Assembly (NCBI GenBank): GCA_030824585.1
Contig: JAVBXM010000250.1
Coordinates: 1 to 60,128 of the forward strand
DNA length: 60,128 bases
Direction: 5' to 3'
DNA from: Phaeospirillum sp.
Lineage (GTDB): Bacteria; Pseudomonadota; Alphaproteobacteria; Rhodospirillales; Magnetospirillaceae
The position numbers and the translations under genes were made by a program. Positions within the stretch are counted from its first letter, which is position 1, and each line of letters opens with the position of its first letter. Positions 14,335-44,796 of the stretch are shown piece by piece. Below the pieces are notes generated by a model. The model had not been told where the DNA came from. It ran no database searches and saw only the letters and a program-made list of their open reading frames with translations.

Positions 14335-16008
14335 CTATTCCGCCGGCAGCAGGACGTGCAGCCGGGTCTGGCCCCCGCCGGTGGTTTCGGCCCACAGGCG
14401 GCCGCCGTGCATCTGGGCGATCTTGCGGCACAGCGCCAGGCTGAGCGTCGGGCCGCCGTCCTTGCCGGGGGTGCTGCCGGGACCCAGCAGCGGGAACGAT
14501 GTCTCGTTTTCCCCGAAATCGATGTCGGTGTTGTCGGCGCTGATGGTCAGGTGCCACATGTCGTCGTCCCGTTCGGCGTCCAGGCCGATGGTCTGGCGGG
14601 TGCCGGGGCGGCGCCGCTCCACGATGGCCGAGACCATGTGGTGGAACAGTCCGGACAGGTGCTGGCGGTCGCCCATGATGTCGGGCAGCGTCCCGGTCTT
14701 AATGACGGCTCCGGCGGCAAGCAGGCGCGGCTCCAGCAGTTCGACGGTTTCGGCCGCGATCCGCGACAGCGAGACCGGCTGGTAGGGGCTGCACTGCGCC
14801 ACGCCCAGATAGCGCTGCAGGGCGTCCAGTTGTCCCCGCATGCGCTCGACCCCCGAGCGGATGAACCCCAGGTACTCGTCCAGATTCCCGGTTTCGCCGC
14901 CGGCCGCCTTGCGGACCAGCAACTGGGCATAGGACAGCACGGTGCGCAGCGGCTCTTGCAGATGGTGGGCGGAAATCTCCGCCATGTGGCGCAGTTCCTC
15001 GTTGGCCAGTTCCAGGTCGGTGGTGCGCCGGGCCAGCAGCCGCTCGAAATGCTCGCGCTCCACCAGTTGCCGGTACAGCGCCCAGGTGATGGCCGCCGCC
15101 GCCAGGATCAGGGGCAGGGCGATGGCCGCCAGGGTGGTGGCGTAGCCATGCCACTCCGCCATGGTGTCGTCGTGCAGGGTGGAAACCGACACCACCGCGG
15201 CGATGCCGCCCAGCCGCCGGTAGCTGGCCTGGCGCAGCTTGCCGTCGGTGGCCACCACGCTGGCATAGCTGCCGGCCGGGGCGATGGCCAGATGCTCCCG
15301 GAACAGCGGGCCTTGCGAAAAATCCTTGCCCATCATGGCATCGTCGGCCGGACCCCGGCCCAGCATGGTGCCGTCGGAACCGAACAGGGCGATGGTGCCG
15401 TTGGGTTTTTGGCGGATGGAATCGAACAGGGCGTTGAGCTGGTCCAGGTGGATCATCACCGTCACCACCGCCACCAGCCCGCCGTCCCGACCACGGTGAG
15501 CCTGGCTGACCGGCAGGACGCGCTGGCCGTTGACCCGGCTGACGATGGGCTTGCCGAGGAACAGCCCCACGTCGCGCTGGCGATGGGCCTGGACGTAGTC
15601 GCGGTCCGCCACCACGATTCCTTCCGGGGGGCGTTCGGGGTGGCTATGCATGAAGCTGCCGTCGGGCGCCACTACCCGGATGGCCGCCAGTTGGGGGGCA
15701 TGCTGCTGGACGTTGGCCAGGAAGCTCTTGAAGGCCGGATCGTTGGGGGCAATGCCCTGTTCGCGGTTCAGGCGCTCGCCCACCAGGGACAGAACCAGGG
15801 CCGCTTGCCGGAAAATGCCGCTGGTGTGCTCGGCCAGGGTGTCGGCCAGCCGCTCGTTGTTGGCCTGGCGGTCGCGCATCAGGTCGCTTCGCCTTTGCCA
15901 GGCCATGGAACTGAACGTGGCGATGATGAACAGCACGGCGAGCACGCCCATCACCACCACGCTGGTGCTGGCGCGCAACGCGAACCGCCTGCTCTTGCCG
16001 TTTGGCAT
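14335..16008 (-). CDS. Membrane sensor histidine kinase with periplasmic Cache-type domain and degenerate ATPase domain
   Basis: The 557-residue protein has TM1 at about residues 14-36, an extracytoplasmic region of about 230 residues resembling a Cache sensor (GSFMHSHPERPPEG, TMLGRGPADDAM), TM2, a short coiled coil, and a dimerisation/phosphoacceptor helix with ISAHHLQEPLRTV (H348). The C-terminal ATPase domain is eroded. The usual N-box Asn is missing (FHHMVSAIVERR), the G1 box reads ADNTDID instead of DNGIGI, and G2 reads GGPTLSLAL instead of GTGIGLAI. The terminal KIAQMHGGRLWAET part is well kept. ATG 16008 was chosen for its GGGGAG ribosome site. No response regulator lies adjacent. Confidence 0.85.
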   Translation of the reverse strand: MPNGKSRRFALRASTSVVVMGVLAVLFIIATFSSMAWQRRSDLMRDRQANNERLADTLAEHTSGIFRQAALVLSLVGERLNREQGIAPNDPAFKSFLANVQQHAPQLAAIRVVAPDGSFMHSHPERPPEGIVVADRDYVQAHRQRDVGLFLGKPIVSRVNGQRVLPVSQAHRGRDGGLVAVVTVMIHLDQLNALFDSIRQKPNGTIALFGSDGTMLGRGPADDAMMGKDFSQGPLFREHLAIAPAGSYASVVATDGKLRQASYRRLGGIAAVVSVSTLHDDTMAEWHGYATTLAAIALPLILAAAAITWALYRQLVEREHFERLLARRTTDLELANEELRHMAEISAHHLQEPLRTVLSYAQLLVRKAAGGETGNLDEYLGFIRSGVERMRGQLDALQRYLGVAQCSPYQPVSLSRIAAETVELLEPRLLAAGAVIKTGTLPDIMGDRQHLSGLFHHMVSAIVERRRPGTRQTIGLDAERDDDMWHLTISADNTDIDFGENETSFPLLGPGSTPGKDGGPTLSLALCRKIAQMHGGRLWAETTGGGQTRLHVLLPAE

Positions 16009-16036: not shown

Positions 16037-16064
16037 ATCATACCAGCCGCTTGATGGGGATCAA
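16037..16064 (-). promoter_or_regulatory. Candidate promoter of the histidine kinase, overlapped by an FNR box
   Basis: On the minus strand TTGATC (16064-16059) and TATGAT (16042-16037) are 16 bases apart, a plausible sigma-70 promoter ending 28 bases before the kinase ATG. The -35 element is contained in the FNR-type palindrome at 16051-16064, so a bound FNR dimer would be expected to block RNA polymerase. Confidence 0.45.
16051..16064. promoter_or_regulatory. Perfect FNR/Anr-type box between the kinase and TPR genes
   Basis: TTGATGGGGATCAA matches the FNR consensus TTGAT-N4-ATCAA in all ten defined positions. Its centre is about 50 bases upstream of the kinase start on the minus strand and about 127 bases upstream of the TPR gene on the plus strand. 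Relative to the candidate kinase promoter it lies over the -35 element and spacer, a repressing position. Confidence 0.6.
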
Positions 16065-40057: not shown

Positions 40058-40120
40058 CTGAGAATCGGTCATACGACGGCATACTTATCCTGAATCATTT
40101 CCCGCTTTGGGGAGGGGTTC

Positions 40121-42127
40121 ATGGGCACCTTTCACCTTTCGCTGAAACTGAGGATTTTCGCGGCTGTCGGGCTGGTCGGGCTGGCGGCGGTCGCCATGGC
40201 CCTGGTGGGAATCCGCTCCATGGCGACCTATCACCAGCACGTGATGGAGATGCAGAACGCCTCCCAGCGCGCGGTGACCGGCGAGAAGGTCAACGGCCTG
40301 ATCAACGCGGTGGTGATGGATTCGCGCGGCGTCTACATGAGCCGCGACGCCAAGGAGGCGGAGAAGTACTCTCCCGCCATCTTGAAGAACGTGGCGGAGA
40401 TCAACCGCCTGATGGCCGAGTGGGCCGCCCTGGTGCCCGAGGCCGAGCGTGCCGCGTTCAAGCCGGTCGCCGAGCATGCTGCCCAGTTCGCCGCCTTCCG
40501 CACCGAGCTGGTGCGCCTGGGCCGCGAGGTGAGCACCGCCGAGGCCCGGCTCTATGGCGATAACGACGTCAACCGCGCCAACCGCCAGGCGCTGAACAAG
40601 CAGATCGAGTCCCTGGCCGCCGCCAATGCCGCCAAGGTCGCCGAGGTGGTCCATGGCCTGGACGATTTCTATGAAAGCCGTCTGCAGGCCATGATCTGGC
40701 TGGCGGTGCTGGGGCTTGCCGCCGGCATCGGCTGGGCGGCGTGGACCGCCTTCAAGCGGGTGTCGCAGCCCATCCACAACATCACCGGGACCATGCAGAA
40801 ACTGGCCGGCGGCAACCTGGCGGTGGATATTCCCTCGGTGGACGCCCACGACGAGGTCGGCGACATGGCCCGCGCCGTCCAGGTGTTCCGCGACGCCATG
40901 CGCGAGACCGAGGCCATGCGCGCCTCCCAGGAACGCGAACGCGAGACCTCCTACACGGAACGGGTCGCGGCGCTGCAGAGCATGGCCCAGACGGTGGAAC
41001 TGGAAACCCGCGCCGCCGTCGAGCAGGTGGCGGCCCAGACCTTGCTGATGGCCGACAATGCCGGCCAGATGGCCCATTCGGCCGGCGCGGTGGGCGGCAG
41101 CAGCCAAAGCGTCGCCGCCGCCGCCACCCAGGCCCTGTCCAACGCCCAGACGGTCTCCGCCGCCGCCGAGCAATTGTCGGCCTCCATCCGCGAGATCGGC
41201 GAGCAGATCGCCACCGCCGGCCGGGTGACTGGCGGCGCGGTGGCCGCCGCCGACAAGGCCCAGGACACCATCACCCGCCTGTCGGTGGCGGTGAACCGCA
41301 TCGGCGAGGTGGCCAACCTGATCCAGAGCATCGCCAGCCAGACCAACCTGCTGGCGCTCAACGCCACCATCGAGGCGGCCCGGGCGGGCGACGCCGGCAA
41401 AGGCTTCGCCGTGGTGGCCAACGAGGTGAAGAACCTCGCCAACCAGACCGCCAAGGCCACCGAGGAAATCTCGTCGCAGATCGGCGCGGTCCAGGCCGGT
41501 ACCGCCGATGCCGTCGCCTCGGTCACCGAGATCACCGAGGCCATCAAGGGGGTGGAGGACGTCTCGGTCAGCGTGGCCGGGGCCATCCGCCAGCAGAACG
41601 ACGCCACCCAGGAAATCGCCCGCAACATCGCCCAGACCGCCCATGCCGCGAGGCAAGTGGCGGAGCGCATCGCCGAGGTCTCGGAAGAGGCGGGCGCCAC
41701 CGGCCAGCGGGCCGCCCGGGTCAACGACATCTCGCTGGACGTGGCCCATTCCATCGAAAGCCTGAAAAGCGTCATCGTCCGGGTGGTGCGCACCGCCACC
41801 AAGGAGGTGGACCGCCGCAGCGCGCCTCGTTACGCGCTGGGGGTCAAGGGCTCGGTCGACCTGGATGGCGTGGAGGTTCCGGTGGTGTTCGCCGAAATCT
41901 CCGAACAGGGGCTGACCATCCAGGGCGAGGTCTGCCCGGTGGGCAAGGGCATGCGGGTCAAGGTGCGCATCGAGGGATGCTCGATGGCGCTGTCCATGGT
42001 CGGCCGCGAATGCGAGAACGGTCGCCTGCACGGCAATCTCGAACTCACTCCCGACGTGGAGGAGCGCTGGCAGGAGGAGTTCCAGCGCCTGATCGCCGGA
42101 CGCCGGCCCCTCCGCGATGCCGCTTAA
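40121..42127 (+). CDS. Chemoreceptor with C-terminal PilZ (c-di-GMP-binding) domain
   Basis: The 668-residue protein has TM1 at about residues 11-30, a periplasmic four-helix-bundle-like sensor, TM2 at about 190-210 and HAMP ([20 protein letters not shown]). The signalling domain has the conserved tip [27 protein letters not shown], and a PilZ domain covers about 564-660. The PilZ ligand motifs are RSAPR (RxxxR, residues 566-570) and EISEQG, where Glu replaces the usual Asp/Asn of [D/N]xSxxG. Such fusions let cellular c-di-GMP tune chemotaxis, as known for Azospirillum Tlp1. GGGGAGGGG precedes the ATG. The next gene makes or degrades c-di-GMP. Confidence 0.92.
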
Positions 42128-42208
42128 CCGGGAAGGAGGAATCGTCGGTTTTCGCCCCATACGGGAACAATTTGTCGCGATTTGTTGAAATGTTGGACAT
42201 GCGTGTCC

Positions 42209-42222
42209 TTGATGAGTATCAA
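42209..42222. promoter_or_regulatory. Perfect FNR/Anr-type box upstream of the GGDEF-EAL gene
   Basis: TTGATGAGTATCAA fits TTGAT-N4-ATCAA in all defined positions. Its centre is 50 bases before the ATG at 42266. If FNR acts at the class II position (-41.5), transcription would start near 42257 with a very short leader; no clear -10 box was found there, so the sign of control is open. Confidence 0.65.
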
Positions 42223-42265
42223 GGGCACGGGGGTAGGGCGTTGACCTGAGGTGGTTTGGGGGGGA

Positions 42266-44305
42266 ATGGAAGACGTGAAGATCAAAGCCAGGATCAGCAT
42301 CACCCGCGTGGTGTTTCTGCTGTCCCTGACGGCGACCGTGCTTGCCCTGGGCGTCGTCGTCCTCATCTCCGGCCATGTGCGTGAGAAGTCGGTGCACGAC
42401 CTTGCCCGCGACGAGGCGCGCCAGACCTCGACCCTGGTGTTCGAGACCCTCTACGCCGCCATGCGCAAGGGCTGGAGCAAGGACGAGATCGGCGAGGTCA
42501 TCACCCGCCTGCAGGCGGCGCTGCCCGACCTGTCCATCCATGTGATCCGCGGCCGTCCGGTGATCGAGCAGTTCGGCGAGATCGCCAACGACGTCGCCAT
42601 CGCCCGCCTCGATCCGCTGCTGCAGGAGGTCTTCGCCACCGGCAAGGAGGTGCTGCTGCCCAGCCCCACCGGCATTCGCTATCTCTATCCTCTGATCGTC
42701 AAGGACGAGTGCCTGCCCTGCCACACGATGGCCAAGGTGGGCGACATCAACGGCGTCATCGACATCGTCTATCCGGTGCACGCGCTGAAGGTGTCCCTGG
42801 ACTACGTCCTGAACACCGTCCTGGCCTATTTCTTCGCCATCCTGTTGCTGCTGTCGGCGGCGTTGTACTTCAAGCTGAAGATTTTCGTGGCGCGGCCCAT
42901 CACCAACATGGTGGGGCTGATGCAGGAGATCATCCAGCACACCGACCTGTCGCGGCGGGTGGAGACCGACGGCTTCATCTCCGAGGTGGCGGACCTCTCG
43001 GACTATTTCAACAAGCTTTTGCGCACGGTGGAGGAGTACCAGCACCGGCTGGAGGACCTGTCCATCCGCGACCCGCTGACCCGGCTTTACAACCGGCGCA
43101 AGTTCGACGAGTTCGTCGATCACGAGATCGGCCGCTCCGAGCGGCACGGCCATCCCTTCTGCATCGCCCAGATCGACCTGGACGACTTCAAGAACATCAA
43201 CGACACCTTCGGCCATCCCATCGGCGATCTGGTGCTGAAGGAACTGGCCAGCGTGCTGCATCGCGAGGTGCGGCGCACCGATGTGGTGGCCCGGGTGGGG
43301 GCCGACGAGTTCTCGGTGCTGCTGCCCGAAACCACCATGGAGGAAGGCGTCGCCGCCGCCGAGAAGCTGCGCCAGGCGGTGGCCGACTGTCAGTTGGGCC
43401 TGCCGGTGGGTGGCGTCCGGGTGACCGCCAGCATCGGCCTGGTGGGCTATCCCGACAATGCCGCCGATGCCCAGAAGCTGGCCATCGCCGCCGACGTGGC
43501 CAGCTACAAGGCCAAGCGCTCGGGCAAGAACCAGGTGGCGGTGATCGGCGAGGGCGAGGACGCCACCGTCGCCATCTTCAGCCAGGGCGAGATGGTGCGT
43601 AGCGCTCTGGCCGAGGGGCGGCTGGTGCCGTTCTTCCAGCCTATCGTCGCCGCCGGGGACGGCAGCGTCGCCGCCTACGAGGTGCTGGCCCGGGTGGTGG
43701 ACGGCGATCAGGCGGTGTGCGCCGGCGACTTCATCGAATCCGCCGAGGAACTGGGGCTGGCCGGCGAGATCGATGCCGCCGTGTTCGACGGCGCCCTGGC
43801 CGCCATGGCGGCGGGCAAGCTGGGCGACGCCAAGATCTTCGTCAATCTGTCGGCCAAGAGCCTGACCGATCGCGAACGCATGATGGCCATTCCGCGGCGT
43901 CTGGCCGAGGCCGGTGTTGCCGCCAACCGAGTGGTTCTCGAGATCACCGAGCGCGAGGCGCTGCCCCATTTCGGCGACATCGTCTCCATGATCAACGAGC
44001 TGCGCAGCACCGGCCTGGGCTTCGCGCTGGACGATTTCGGTTCGGGCTTCTCGTCGTTCCTCTACCTCAAATACATCACGGTGGATTACGTCAAGATCGA
44101 GGGCAGCTTCATCCGCCACGTGGTCACCGACGAACGCGACCGCATCATGGTGGAGCACATCCATTCCATGGCCCGGCGCTTCGGCATGATCACCATCGCC
44201 GAGTTCGTGGAGGACGAGGCGACCATGGTGCTGCTGCGCAAGATGGGGATCAATCTGTGCCAGGGCTTCCACATCGCCGTGCCGAAGCCCATTCATAAGC
44301 TGTGA
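42266..44305 (+). CDS. Membrane GGDEF-EAL protein with periplasmic CxxCH haem motif
   Basis: A 679-residue c-di-GMP enzyme candidate. TM1 is at about residues 13-35. The periplasmic sensor (36-182) holds ECLPCHTM (C149, C152, H153), a c-type haem attachment motif. TM2 lies at about 183-203 and is followed by HAMP and GGDEF. The signature reads GADEF (345-349), with an intact RRTD inhibitory site five residues before it. The EAL domain reads YEVLAR instead of EAL but keeps NLS, LEITE, DDFGSGFSS, VKIEG, AEFVED and CQGF, so phosphodiesterase activity is likely while cyclase activity is uncertain. It follows the PilZ chemoreceptor, overlaps the ProX-type gene start by one base, and has an FNR box upstream. 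Confidence 0.92.
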   Translation: MEDVKIKARISITRVVFLLSLTATVLALGVVVLISGHVREKSVHDLARDEARQTSTLVFETLYAAMRKGWSKDEIGEVITRLQAALPDLSIHVIRGRPVIEQFGEIANDVAIARLDPLLQEVFATGKEVLLPSPTGIRYLYPLIVKDECLPCHTMAKVGDINGVIDIVYPVHALKVSLDYVLNTVLAYFFAILLLLSAALYFKLKIFVARPITNMVGLMQEIIQHTDLSRRVETDGFISEVADLSDYFNKLLRTVEEYQHRLEDLSIRDPLTRLYNRRKFDEFVDHEIGRSERHGHPFCIAQIDLDDFKNINDTFGHPIGDLVLKELASVLHREVRRTDVVARVGADEFSVLLPETTMEEGVAAAEKLRQAVADCQLGLPVGGVRVTASIGLVGYPDNAADAQKLAIAADVASYKAKRSGKNQVAVIGEGEDATVAIFSQGEMVRSALAEGRLVPFFQPIVAAGDGSVAAYEVLARVVDGDQAVCAGDFIESAEELGLAGEIDAAVFDGALAAMAAGKLGDAKIFVNLSAKSLTDRERMMAIPRRLAEAGVAANRVVLEITEREALPHFGDIVSMINELRSTGLGFALDDFGSGFSSFLYLKYITVDYVKIEGSFIRHVVTDERDRIMVEHIHSMARRFGMITIAEFVEDEATMVLLRKMGINLCQGFHIAVPKPIHKL

Positions 44306-44796
44306 TGACGCCCGCGACACCCGACGACCTGTTCGCCCTGTTCGACCGCCTGGACATCCGGGCGGTGACCCACCGGCACGAACCGGCCTTCACGGTGGAG
44401 GAGGGGCACCGGGTGTGGGGGGCGATTCCGGGAGTTCACTGCAAGAACCTGTTCCTCAAGGACGGCAAGGGTCGGCTGTGGCTGGTGGTGGCCCCCGCCG
44501 AGCGGCGCGTCGACCTCAAGACCCTGCCGCAGAGGATCGGCTCGGCGCGGCTGTCCTTCGGCTCGGCGGCGCTGCTGGCCGAGGTGCTGGGCGTCGAGCC
44601 GGGCTCGGTGACGCCCTTCGCGGCGATCAACGACCGGGAACACCGGGTCTCGGTGGTCCTGGACGCCGAGATGATGGCGCAGGAGCGGGTCAATTATCAT
44701 CCGCTGCGCAACGACATGACCAGCACGCTCGCTCCGGCGGAGCTGATGCGCTTTTTCGGGCATACCGGCCATTCCCCTCTGCTGGTTGATCTATAG
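44305..44796 (+). CDS. Prolyl-tRNA editing protein (ProX/YbaK-type deacylase)
   Basis: A 163-residue protein of the YbaK/ProX editing superfamily, which hydrolyses mischarged Ala- or Cys-tRNA(Pro). Visible motifs are VTHRHEPAFTVEEGHRV, the catalytic Lys in HCKNLFLKD, GSARLSFGSAALLAEVLGVEPGSVTPFA, and the late NYHPLRNDMTSTL. The start is ATG 44305, overlapping the stop of the GGDEF-EAL gene (TGATG); GTG 44302 is also possible. Coupling to a signalling gene is probably only positional. Confidence 0.9.
   Translation: MTPATPDDLFALFDRLDIRAVTHRHEPAFTVEEGHRVWGAIPGVHCKNLFLKDGKGRLWLVVAPAERRVDLKTLPQRIGSARLSFGSAALLAEVLGVEPGSVTPFAAINDREHRVSVVLDAEMMAQERVNYHPLRNDMTSTLAPAELMRFFGHTGHSPLLVDL

Follow-up and report, generated by a model that had tools for sequence, protein, structure and literature searches.

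A conserved FNR-type box overlapping a promoter-like pair upstream of a predicted haem-c cyclic di-GMP enzyme gene in one clade of Paramagnetospirillum

Fnr of E. coli (PMC5398030) and FnrL of R. sphaeroides (PMC2908626) share the operator motif TTGAT-N4-ATCAA, and several R. sphaeroides genes with perfect boxes are marked as repressed. Loss of fnrL in D. shibae raised the expression of 329 genes and lowered that of 160, described as broad repression by FnrL (PMC5398030). Within the magnetospirilla, Fnr of M. gryphiswaldense has been linked to denitrification and magnetite formation (PMC4065386), and cycA has been named as a target of FnrN in Magnetospirillum, in passages that do not mention cyclic di-GMP (c-di-GMP) (PMC4999443). 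The DNR consensus, CTTGATnnnnATCAAG (CTTGAT-N4-ATCAAG), was derived from denitrification genes (PMC1274295). Here, we describe a site of this kind before the gene of a predicted c-di-GMP enzyme in Phaeospirillum sp. (assembly GCA_030824585.1, contig JAVBXM010000250.1); the window is the whole stretch of 60,128 nucleotides that was analysed. Among the openly licensed papers listed as matches on c-di-GMP genes or Fnr in magnetospirilla, or on FNR together with c-di-GMP, none concerned this gene or its box.

The sensor part of the enzyme likewise has described relatives. The name sCache_heme has been given to the PF11845-type family, for which fusions to GGDEF and EAL domains are noted; one signalling member displayed the properties of a nitric oxide (NO) sensor and not of an O2 sensor, and a stand-alone member was redox-like (PMC12889525, preprint). 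The Geobacter sensors bind CO and NO and are described with a redox-linked mechanism, and in GSU0935 the distal haem ligand, Met60, lies 84 residues ahead of the axial His144 (PMC8396549). In DosP, an oxygen-sensing c-di-GMP phosphodiesterase, an N-terminal haem-bound PAS domain is joined to GGDEF-EAL. Both the operator and the sensor family belong to known kinds. What sets this locus apart from the FNR, FnrL and MgFnr operators is that the putative site overlaps a likely -10 element, is confined to one clade and stands before a c-di-GMP enzyme gene. The elements concerned are these:

42209..42222, + strand: FNR-family box TTGATGAGTATCAA, which with the flanking C and G forms the conserved 16-mer CTTGATGAGTATCAAG (42208-42223)
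42194..42199, + strand: putative -35 hexamer TGGACA, within the invariant element GTTGGACA and part of the best sigma70-like pair in 6/6 species with the box
42217..42222, + strand: putative -10 hexamer TATCAA, the right half of the box, 17 bases from the -35 hexamer
42266..44305, + strand: predicted c-di-GMP enzyme, with sCache_heme-like, HAMP, GADEF and EAL parts; the longest open reading frame (ORF) runs from GTG 42251

The box matches TTGAT-N4-ATCAA with 0 mismatches. A first-pass annotation, made from the DNA letters alone, had reported a perfect FNR box 50 bases before the start of a c-di-GMP gene, and both points hold, the 50 bases running from the box centre to ATG 42266. GTG 42251 opens the longest ORF; ATG 42266 is the likely start, and is preferred because one orthologue (L095) has a TAA immediately 5′ of the same ATG.

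At a threshold of E <= 1e-100, an orthologue of the enzyme was found in 17 of 55 family genomes and 14 of 17 congeneric genomes, its own genome included. A collection of named loci added 13 (L011-L023) out of 79, the other 66 matching from residue 183 on only. Because 10 of these 13 share identity figures with family-genome loci and were taken as identical sequences, all counts rest on 20 distinct rows, with L020-L022 as further relatives (52–54% identical). Among named relatives, Paramagnetospirillum caucaseum SO-1 (L011) is the closest, at 95% identity. Six of the 20 rows carry the box, always perfect and with the same spacer, GAGT; these are six of the 14 congeneric orthologues and form one clade, and no box was found upstream in any of the six more distant rows. 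In a protein tree of the 20 rows the six group together with support of 96/97, requiring one change. On these sequences, the box arose once, within one clade of Paramagnetospirillum.

Across the six species all 16 bases of CTTGATGAGTATCAAG are invariant, whereas the remaining intergenic DNA shows 54.5–82.7% pairwise identity. Across 143 aligned intergenic columns no other invariant run is as long as the 16-mer, a length reached in 13 of 200,000 column shuffles; 64 columns are invariant in total, 48 of them among the 127 outside the 16-mer, and GTTGGACA is the second-longest invariant element. The exact 16-mer is present in one copy in each of the six genomes, which led us to reject a genome-wide repeat, and in none of the other 11 congeneric genomes searched. 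It is this conservation between sequences, and not the perfect match alone, that provides strong evidence for the box.

The first-pass annotation had also considered a chance match unlikely, and the genome search it proposed agrees. In 4,936,282 bases on 262 contigs we found 10 perfect boxes and no copy of the reversed pattern, where base composition predicts 0.27–0.42 boxes and an order-2 model of the window 0.97, that is, 0.3 to 1. The window itself holds 2 (0.01 expected; 0/100 shuffles reach 2). Allowing one mismatch gives 123 matches against 7 for the reversed pattern, an excess for which codon usage must account in part. A perfect match is by itself no proof, because one of the ten (L004) falls within a Pfam domain of a gene and three more (L001, L002 and L010) lie in long ORFs that look coding by eye; the L001 ORF has no Pfam match, and the L010 match is outside the MoaC stretch of its ORF. 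Many of the ten are overlapped by mechanical ORFs in some frame, and L003 sits in DNA of 52% G+C. Besides the box of the c-di-GMP gene (L006), promoter-like boxes precede genes for a dCache histidine kinase (L005), an NMT1_2-family transporter (L007), a nirS-like protein with cytochrome c and cytochrome d1 domains (L008) and a haem-copper oxidase subunit I (L009), which we take to be cbb3-type. Terminal oxidase transcripts were unchanged in an M. gryphiswaldense fnr mutant (PMC4065386), and the oxidase box is therefore not taken as a proven FNR site.

The dCache kinase box, at 16051-16064, is the second perfect box of the window and lies 42 bases upstream of its gene (14335-16008, minus strand). 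Among seven orthologues the corresponding place is perfect in L129, has 1 mismatch in L128, 2 in L131 and 3 in L130 and L133, and shows no box among the three best listed matches in L132 and L134; in L132 a match with 1 mismatch lies elsewhere, at -134. A TTGATC and a TATGAT-like hexamer are kept in 4/7 (L128-L131) with a variable right half, and the element may mainly be a -35 hexamer. As it is not kept whole in most orthologues, we dropped it as support for the box of the c-di-GMP gene. That second box, like the coding match of L004 and the three coding-looking ones, is what would be expected if the c-di-GMP gene's match were a chance one or a functionless frozen remnant; with 16 bases invariant across six diverged species and a single copy per genome, we consider this highly improbable.

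The box coincides with a promoter-like sequence. In a scan for pairs against TTGACA and TATAAT, with spacers of 16–18 and starting 150 bases upstream, TGGACA-N17-TATCAA ranks first in 6/6 box species, with 9/12 consensus matches. Similar pairs recur in congeners that lack the box: L096, L098, L099 and, in a tie, L100 have as their top pair the same -35 hexamer followed after 18 bases by TATCAC or TATCTA, and like pairs rank second in L101 (TGGACT, TATGAC) and L103 (TAAGAC). A stricter pair pattern, reached in at most 2/2000 base shuffles of each sequence, is found in all six box species, in 5/8 boxless congeners (18-base spacer) and in 0/6 distant rows. Because the pair ranks first in the box species and recurs in boxless congeners, the right half of the box is probably a -10 hexamer. 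Five boxless species have none of four tested neighbour genes adjoining within the flanks examined; since four of the five (L099, L100, L101 and L103) retain the strict pattern, it travels with the gene. We infer that TGGACA-N17-TATCAA is a working promoter with a predicted start at about 42229, which would place the box centre at about -14. As the box overlaps the -10 hexamer, a bound protein should block RNA polymerase. FNR-family control of the gene is likely, and its sign, which the first-pass annotation had not given, is probably negative.

An alternative is that FnrL acts as an activator, bound 5′ of a second promoter, and increases expression at low oxygen. Activation is the sign given for most rows shown in the FnrL table of R. 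sphaeroides, the repressed perfect boxes notwithstanding (PMC2908626), and a TAGGGC downstream of the box is likewise invariant in the clade. A class II start would fall at about 42257, nine bases 5′ of the ATG, yet 42243-42250 (GACCTGAG) contains no -10-like hexamer by eye, and in all six species the best pair of the scan coincides with the box itself. We rejected the class II geometry, there being by eye no -10 at the right distance, and regard an activator site as unlikely.

The box is also the centre of a longer repeat:

42202..42229, + strand: 12-bp inverted repeat around the box (possible hairpin); covariation controls unexceptional

This palindrome could work as an RNA or DNA hairpin that ends the transcript of the upstream chemoreceptor or hinders read-through, in which case its resemblance to an FNR box would be incidental. 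With 12 bp per arm it reaches -20.3 kcal/mol (z -5.45), and positions beyond the core pair in several species even where bases have changed; the Watson-Crick count is reached in 112 of 20,000 permutations (361 with G-U). The pair counts are nevertheless ordinary, 43–189 of 500 shuffles being as high, and the structure slid by two columns gives higher covariation. The outer pairs of the stem are broken in L091 and L095, and the fold energy is not special, because boxless species fold at -10.4 to -27.2 kcal/mol in the same stretch. There is no T run, and a terminator scan returned no terminator-like site at the repeat, on which ground the terminator reading was rejected; the RNA-structure reading was set aside for its covariation within shuffles and the like fold energies of boxless species. 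The invariant core is exactly the FNR/DNR consensus, whereas a stem needs no invariant bases, and a hairpin function therefore seems to us quite improbable.

As in the described FNR, FnrL and MgFnr systems, the perfect motif before the gene is accompanied by an encoded FnrL-type regulator with conserved cysteines. This protein, L107, matches the FnrL model NF045989 at E 2.5e-52 (177.5 bits, cut-off 300). It has counterparts in 14/17 congeneric genomes, the same 14 that carry the enzyme, and these FnrL-type matches contain CxxC-x8-C in 14/14 cases and ETVSR in 13/14. The first-pass annotation proposed that expression responds to oxygen through FNR; as far as the sequence goes, control by the family stands as likely, but FNR is here indistinguishable from another CRP/FNR member such as an NO-responsive Dnr.

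The operator might indeed serve a Dnr-type regulator and not FnrL, with promoter and haem sensor both answering the NO of denitrification. The DNR consensus CTTGATnnnnATCAAG agrees with the conserved 16-mer at every base, also at the flanking C and G, and the tested signalling member of the haem family binds NO (PMC12889525). Six CRP/FNR paralogues among the 10 scanned (L108, L110, L112, L113, L117 and L119) have the FtrB model as their best match, below its cut-off, and could be Dnr-type. Two of these, L110 and L113, adjoin each other near cytochrome d1-type genes (G000:C260:18695-27854) and are candidate Dnr regulators. Strong cytochrome d1 matches (best E < 1e-100) are commoner where the enzyme is present, in 16/17 genomes against 18/38 without it, an association that is weak, because related genomes are not independent and relatedness was left uncorrected, and for which the profile also picks up relatives of nitrite reductase. 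The flanks do not separate the regulators, because the box before the nirS-like gene here is flanked by T and A. The DNR motif comes from denitrification genes, and the candidate paralogues here are not placed in the DNR class, no model having assigned any of the six to a Dnr family. Among the alphaproteobacteria examined in one report no DNR orthologue was found (PMC1274295), yet D. shibae possesses regulators named Dnr (PMC5398030). We consider a Dnr operator possible but doubtful.

The protein encoded by the c-di-GMP gene comprises a transmembrane (TM) helix, a periplasmic haem sensor, a second TM helix, HAMP, GADEF and EAL. The GGDEF-EAL assignment of the first-pass annotation holds at the level of domains, both of which are complete (PF00990, GGDEF, E 5.1e-43; PF00563, EAL, E 1.7e-59), but not of exact motifs: GGDEF reads GADEF, preceded by RRTD, and EAL reads EVL. 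Related proteins vary at this position, with AADEF in L103 (= L019) and GGDEF in L104 (= L018), L021, L022 and L106. A weak HAMP match also falls in the sensor part (E 0.0033). Two features of the sensor concern haem:

42710..42724, + strand: CLPCH, c-type haem attachment motif; CxxCH in 19/20 distinct rows, its own included
42461..42463, + strand: invariant Met, candidate distal haem ligand; residue 71 of the longest ORF, M58 of alignment A1, in 13/13 rows

The periplasmic haem motif had been noted in the first-pass annotation and is borne out; in the 20th row, L095, a stop before its ATG prevented the script from reading CxxCH. Alignment A1 uses 13 of 14 rows, those of the window and L011-L023, with L014 left out for its in-frame stop. 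Both cysteines and the histidine of CxxCH are invariant in all 13, with no further invariant cysteine in the sensor. The invariant Met 58 precedes the histidine by 87 residues and, from this spacing, would be the counterpart of Met60 in GSU0935. PF11845 (Tll0287-like) is matched at E <= 1 in 13/13 rows, at best 9.6e-5. When a predicted model of the sensor was compared with the Protein Data Bank by Foldseek, Tll0287 (5b82, E 1.6e-4), GSU0582 (3b47, 8.3e-3) and GSU0935 (3b42, 1.1e-2) took ranks 2–4 behind an integrative WalK-YycH model. A search of solved structures by sequence, with the sensor alone and as a profile, returned designed helical proteins and one chemoreceptor over TM/HAMP, and we rely on the fold comparison as the more telling.

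With Tll0287, GSU0582 and GSU0935 the sensor thus shares CxxCH, a matching model fold, the TM-sensor-TM-HAMP layout and fusion to a signalling output. Tll0287 differs in having an axial cysteine; because the only invariant sensor cysteines here are those of the haem motif, these proteins would have no such ligand, and the invariant Met may replace it. DosP is similar in joining a haem sensor to GGDEF-EAL but carries its haem on a PAS domain, where here a c-type motif lies on the periplasmic side, and the NCBIfam DosP model covers residues 233-680 only, below its cut-off. By analogy, the haem most likely responds to NO or redox state before O2, because the tested signalling member of the related family has NO- and not O2-sensor properties. 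For the same reason, the proposal of the first-pass annotation that oxygen acts at two levels is less likely for the haem, and is retained for the promoter, where the signal would be oxygen or NO. In one metagenome-assembled genome, VK2_bin-0414 (L100 / L014), the gene contains a TAG in frame, 275 codons into its frame and close to where the sensor part ends, either an assembly error or a broken gene.

Our best explanation joins these elements. The product would be a c-di-GMP enzyme of the inner membrane, with a periplasmic sCache_heme-like domain that binds haem covalently and most likely senses NO or redox state. The gene would have its own sigma70-type promoter, 44–72 bases upstream of the ATG, older than the box, and a CRP/FNR-family operator would have arisen over its -10 hexamer in one Paramagnetospirillum clade. 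At low oxygen the FnrL-type protein (or, in the presence of NO, a Dnr-type paralogue) would bind and block RNA polymerase, lowering production of the enzyme and probably also of the YbaK-type gene product encoded downstream. Taken whole, we judge the chances of this account to be evenly balanced. More tentatively, and in our view possible at most, the clade may have recently rewired an old haem-c enzyme such that it is removed as low-oxygen denitrification starts, while the enzyme itself reads periplasmic NO or redox state.

A number of observations weigh against this explanation. The box was not found upstream in 8/14 congeneric orthologues, so that orthologous upstream regions, which the first-pass annotation had set as a test, give a split answer, the box being confined to one six-species clade. 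The GAGT spacer is conserved though FNR binding does not need it. TATCAA has only 4/6 of the -10 consensus, a separate promoter scan called no site at the pair, and among boxless congeners L102 combines TATCAC with a different -35 hexamer at second rank and L097 has no pair, its -10 not being found in the pair scan. Fourteen proteins of the genome exceed the HTH_Crp_2 cut-off, the FnrL-type one and 13 other CRP/FNR-family members, and L107 matches FixK almost as well as FnrL (4.5e-52; Fnr 1.5e-35), all below the curated cut-offs. The FnrL-type matches of two boxless species, L141 (G045) and L148 (G038), each contain one in-frame TGA, which may lie upstream of the true start. MgFnr is described as both activating and repressing, as acting on denitrification genes and not on terminal oxidases, and as repressing nor and nosZ in air (PMC4065386). 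For the sensor, the window sequence matches PF11845 at E 0.028 only (15.3 bits, curated cut-off 24.1), the AlphaFold model is of medium quality (mean pLDDT 73, pTM 0.50), and for DcrA of Desulfovibrio, which is also a c-haem sensor of the periplasm, both redox potential and oxygen are given as signals (PMC8396549).

The habitat of magnetotactic bacteria is the oxic-anoxic boundary, and they have to choose where to swim or settle. A conserved operator at this gene would tie the Fnr-type switch of denitrification and magnetite formation to c-di-GMP. On the more tentative reading of a recent rewiring, a two-level gate using two chemistries would stand between nitrogen-oxide respiration and c-di-GMP, with the boxless sister species as natural controls. 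The division of species into those with and without the box, over a shared promoter-like pair, makes the gain of the operator directly testable.

The enzyme gene is flanked by two genes on the same strand:

40121..42127, + strand: upstream chemoreceptor (4HB, HAMP, MCPsignal, weak PilZ); neighbour in 8/14 congeneric rows
44305..44796, + strand: downstream YbaK-type (tRNA_edit) gene; neighbour in 8/14 congeneric rows

The c-di-GMP gene and the YbaK-type gene are likely to be co-transcribed, because the stop codon of the former shares one base with the likely ATG of the latter. In other species, 10 ORFs neighbouring the gene were scanned at 6 loci (among them uvrC, phaC and, in L019, a cytochrome c gene), and no shared function emerged from them. 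Three congeneric genomes of 3.8 Mb (G035, G036 and G042) lack the enzyme, FnrL-type matches and cytochrome d1 matches at the thresholds used; this joint absence may be one event and was not counted as support. A contig labelled Terasakiella (L023, from the Terasakiella sp. PR1 assembly) carries the gene at 83% identity with the same neighbours as here, and its identity figure is that of the congeneric genome G038; the label may be wrong. A minus-strand ORF of 1411 aa (40085-44320), antisense to the chemoreceptor and c-di-GMP genes, was rejected as a gene, such ORFs being expected in G+C-rich DNA. Lastly, the C-terminus of the chemoreceptor has a PilZ-like stretch (E 0.0039, below cut-off), and the protein is possibly a c-di-GMP-binding chemoreceptor adjoining a c-di-GMP enzyme.

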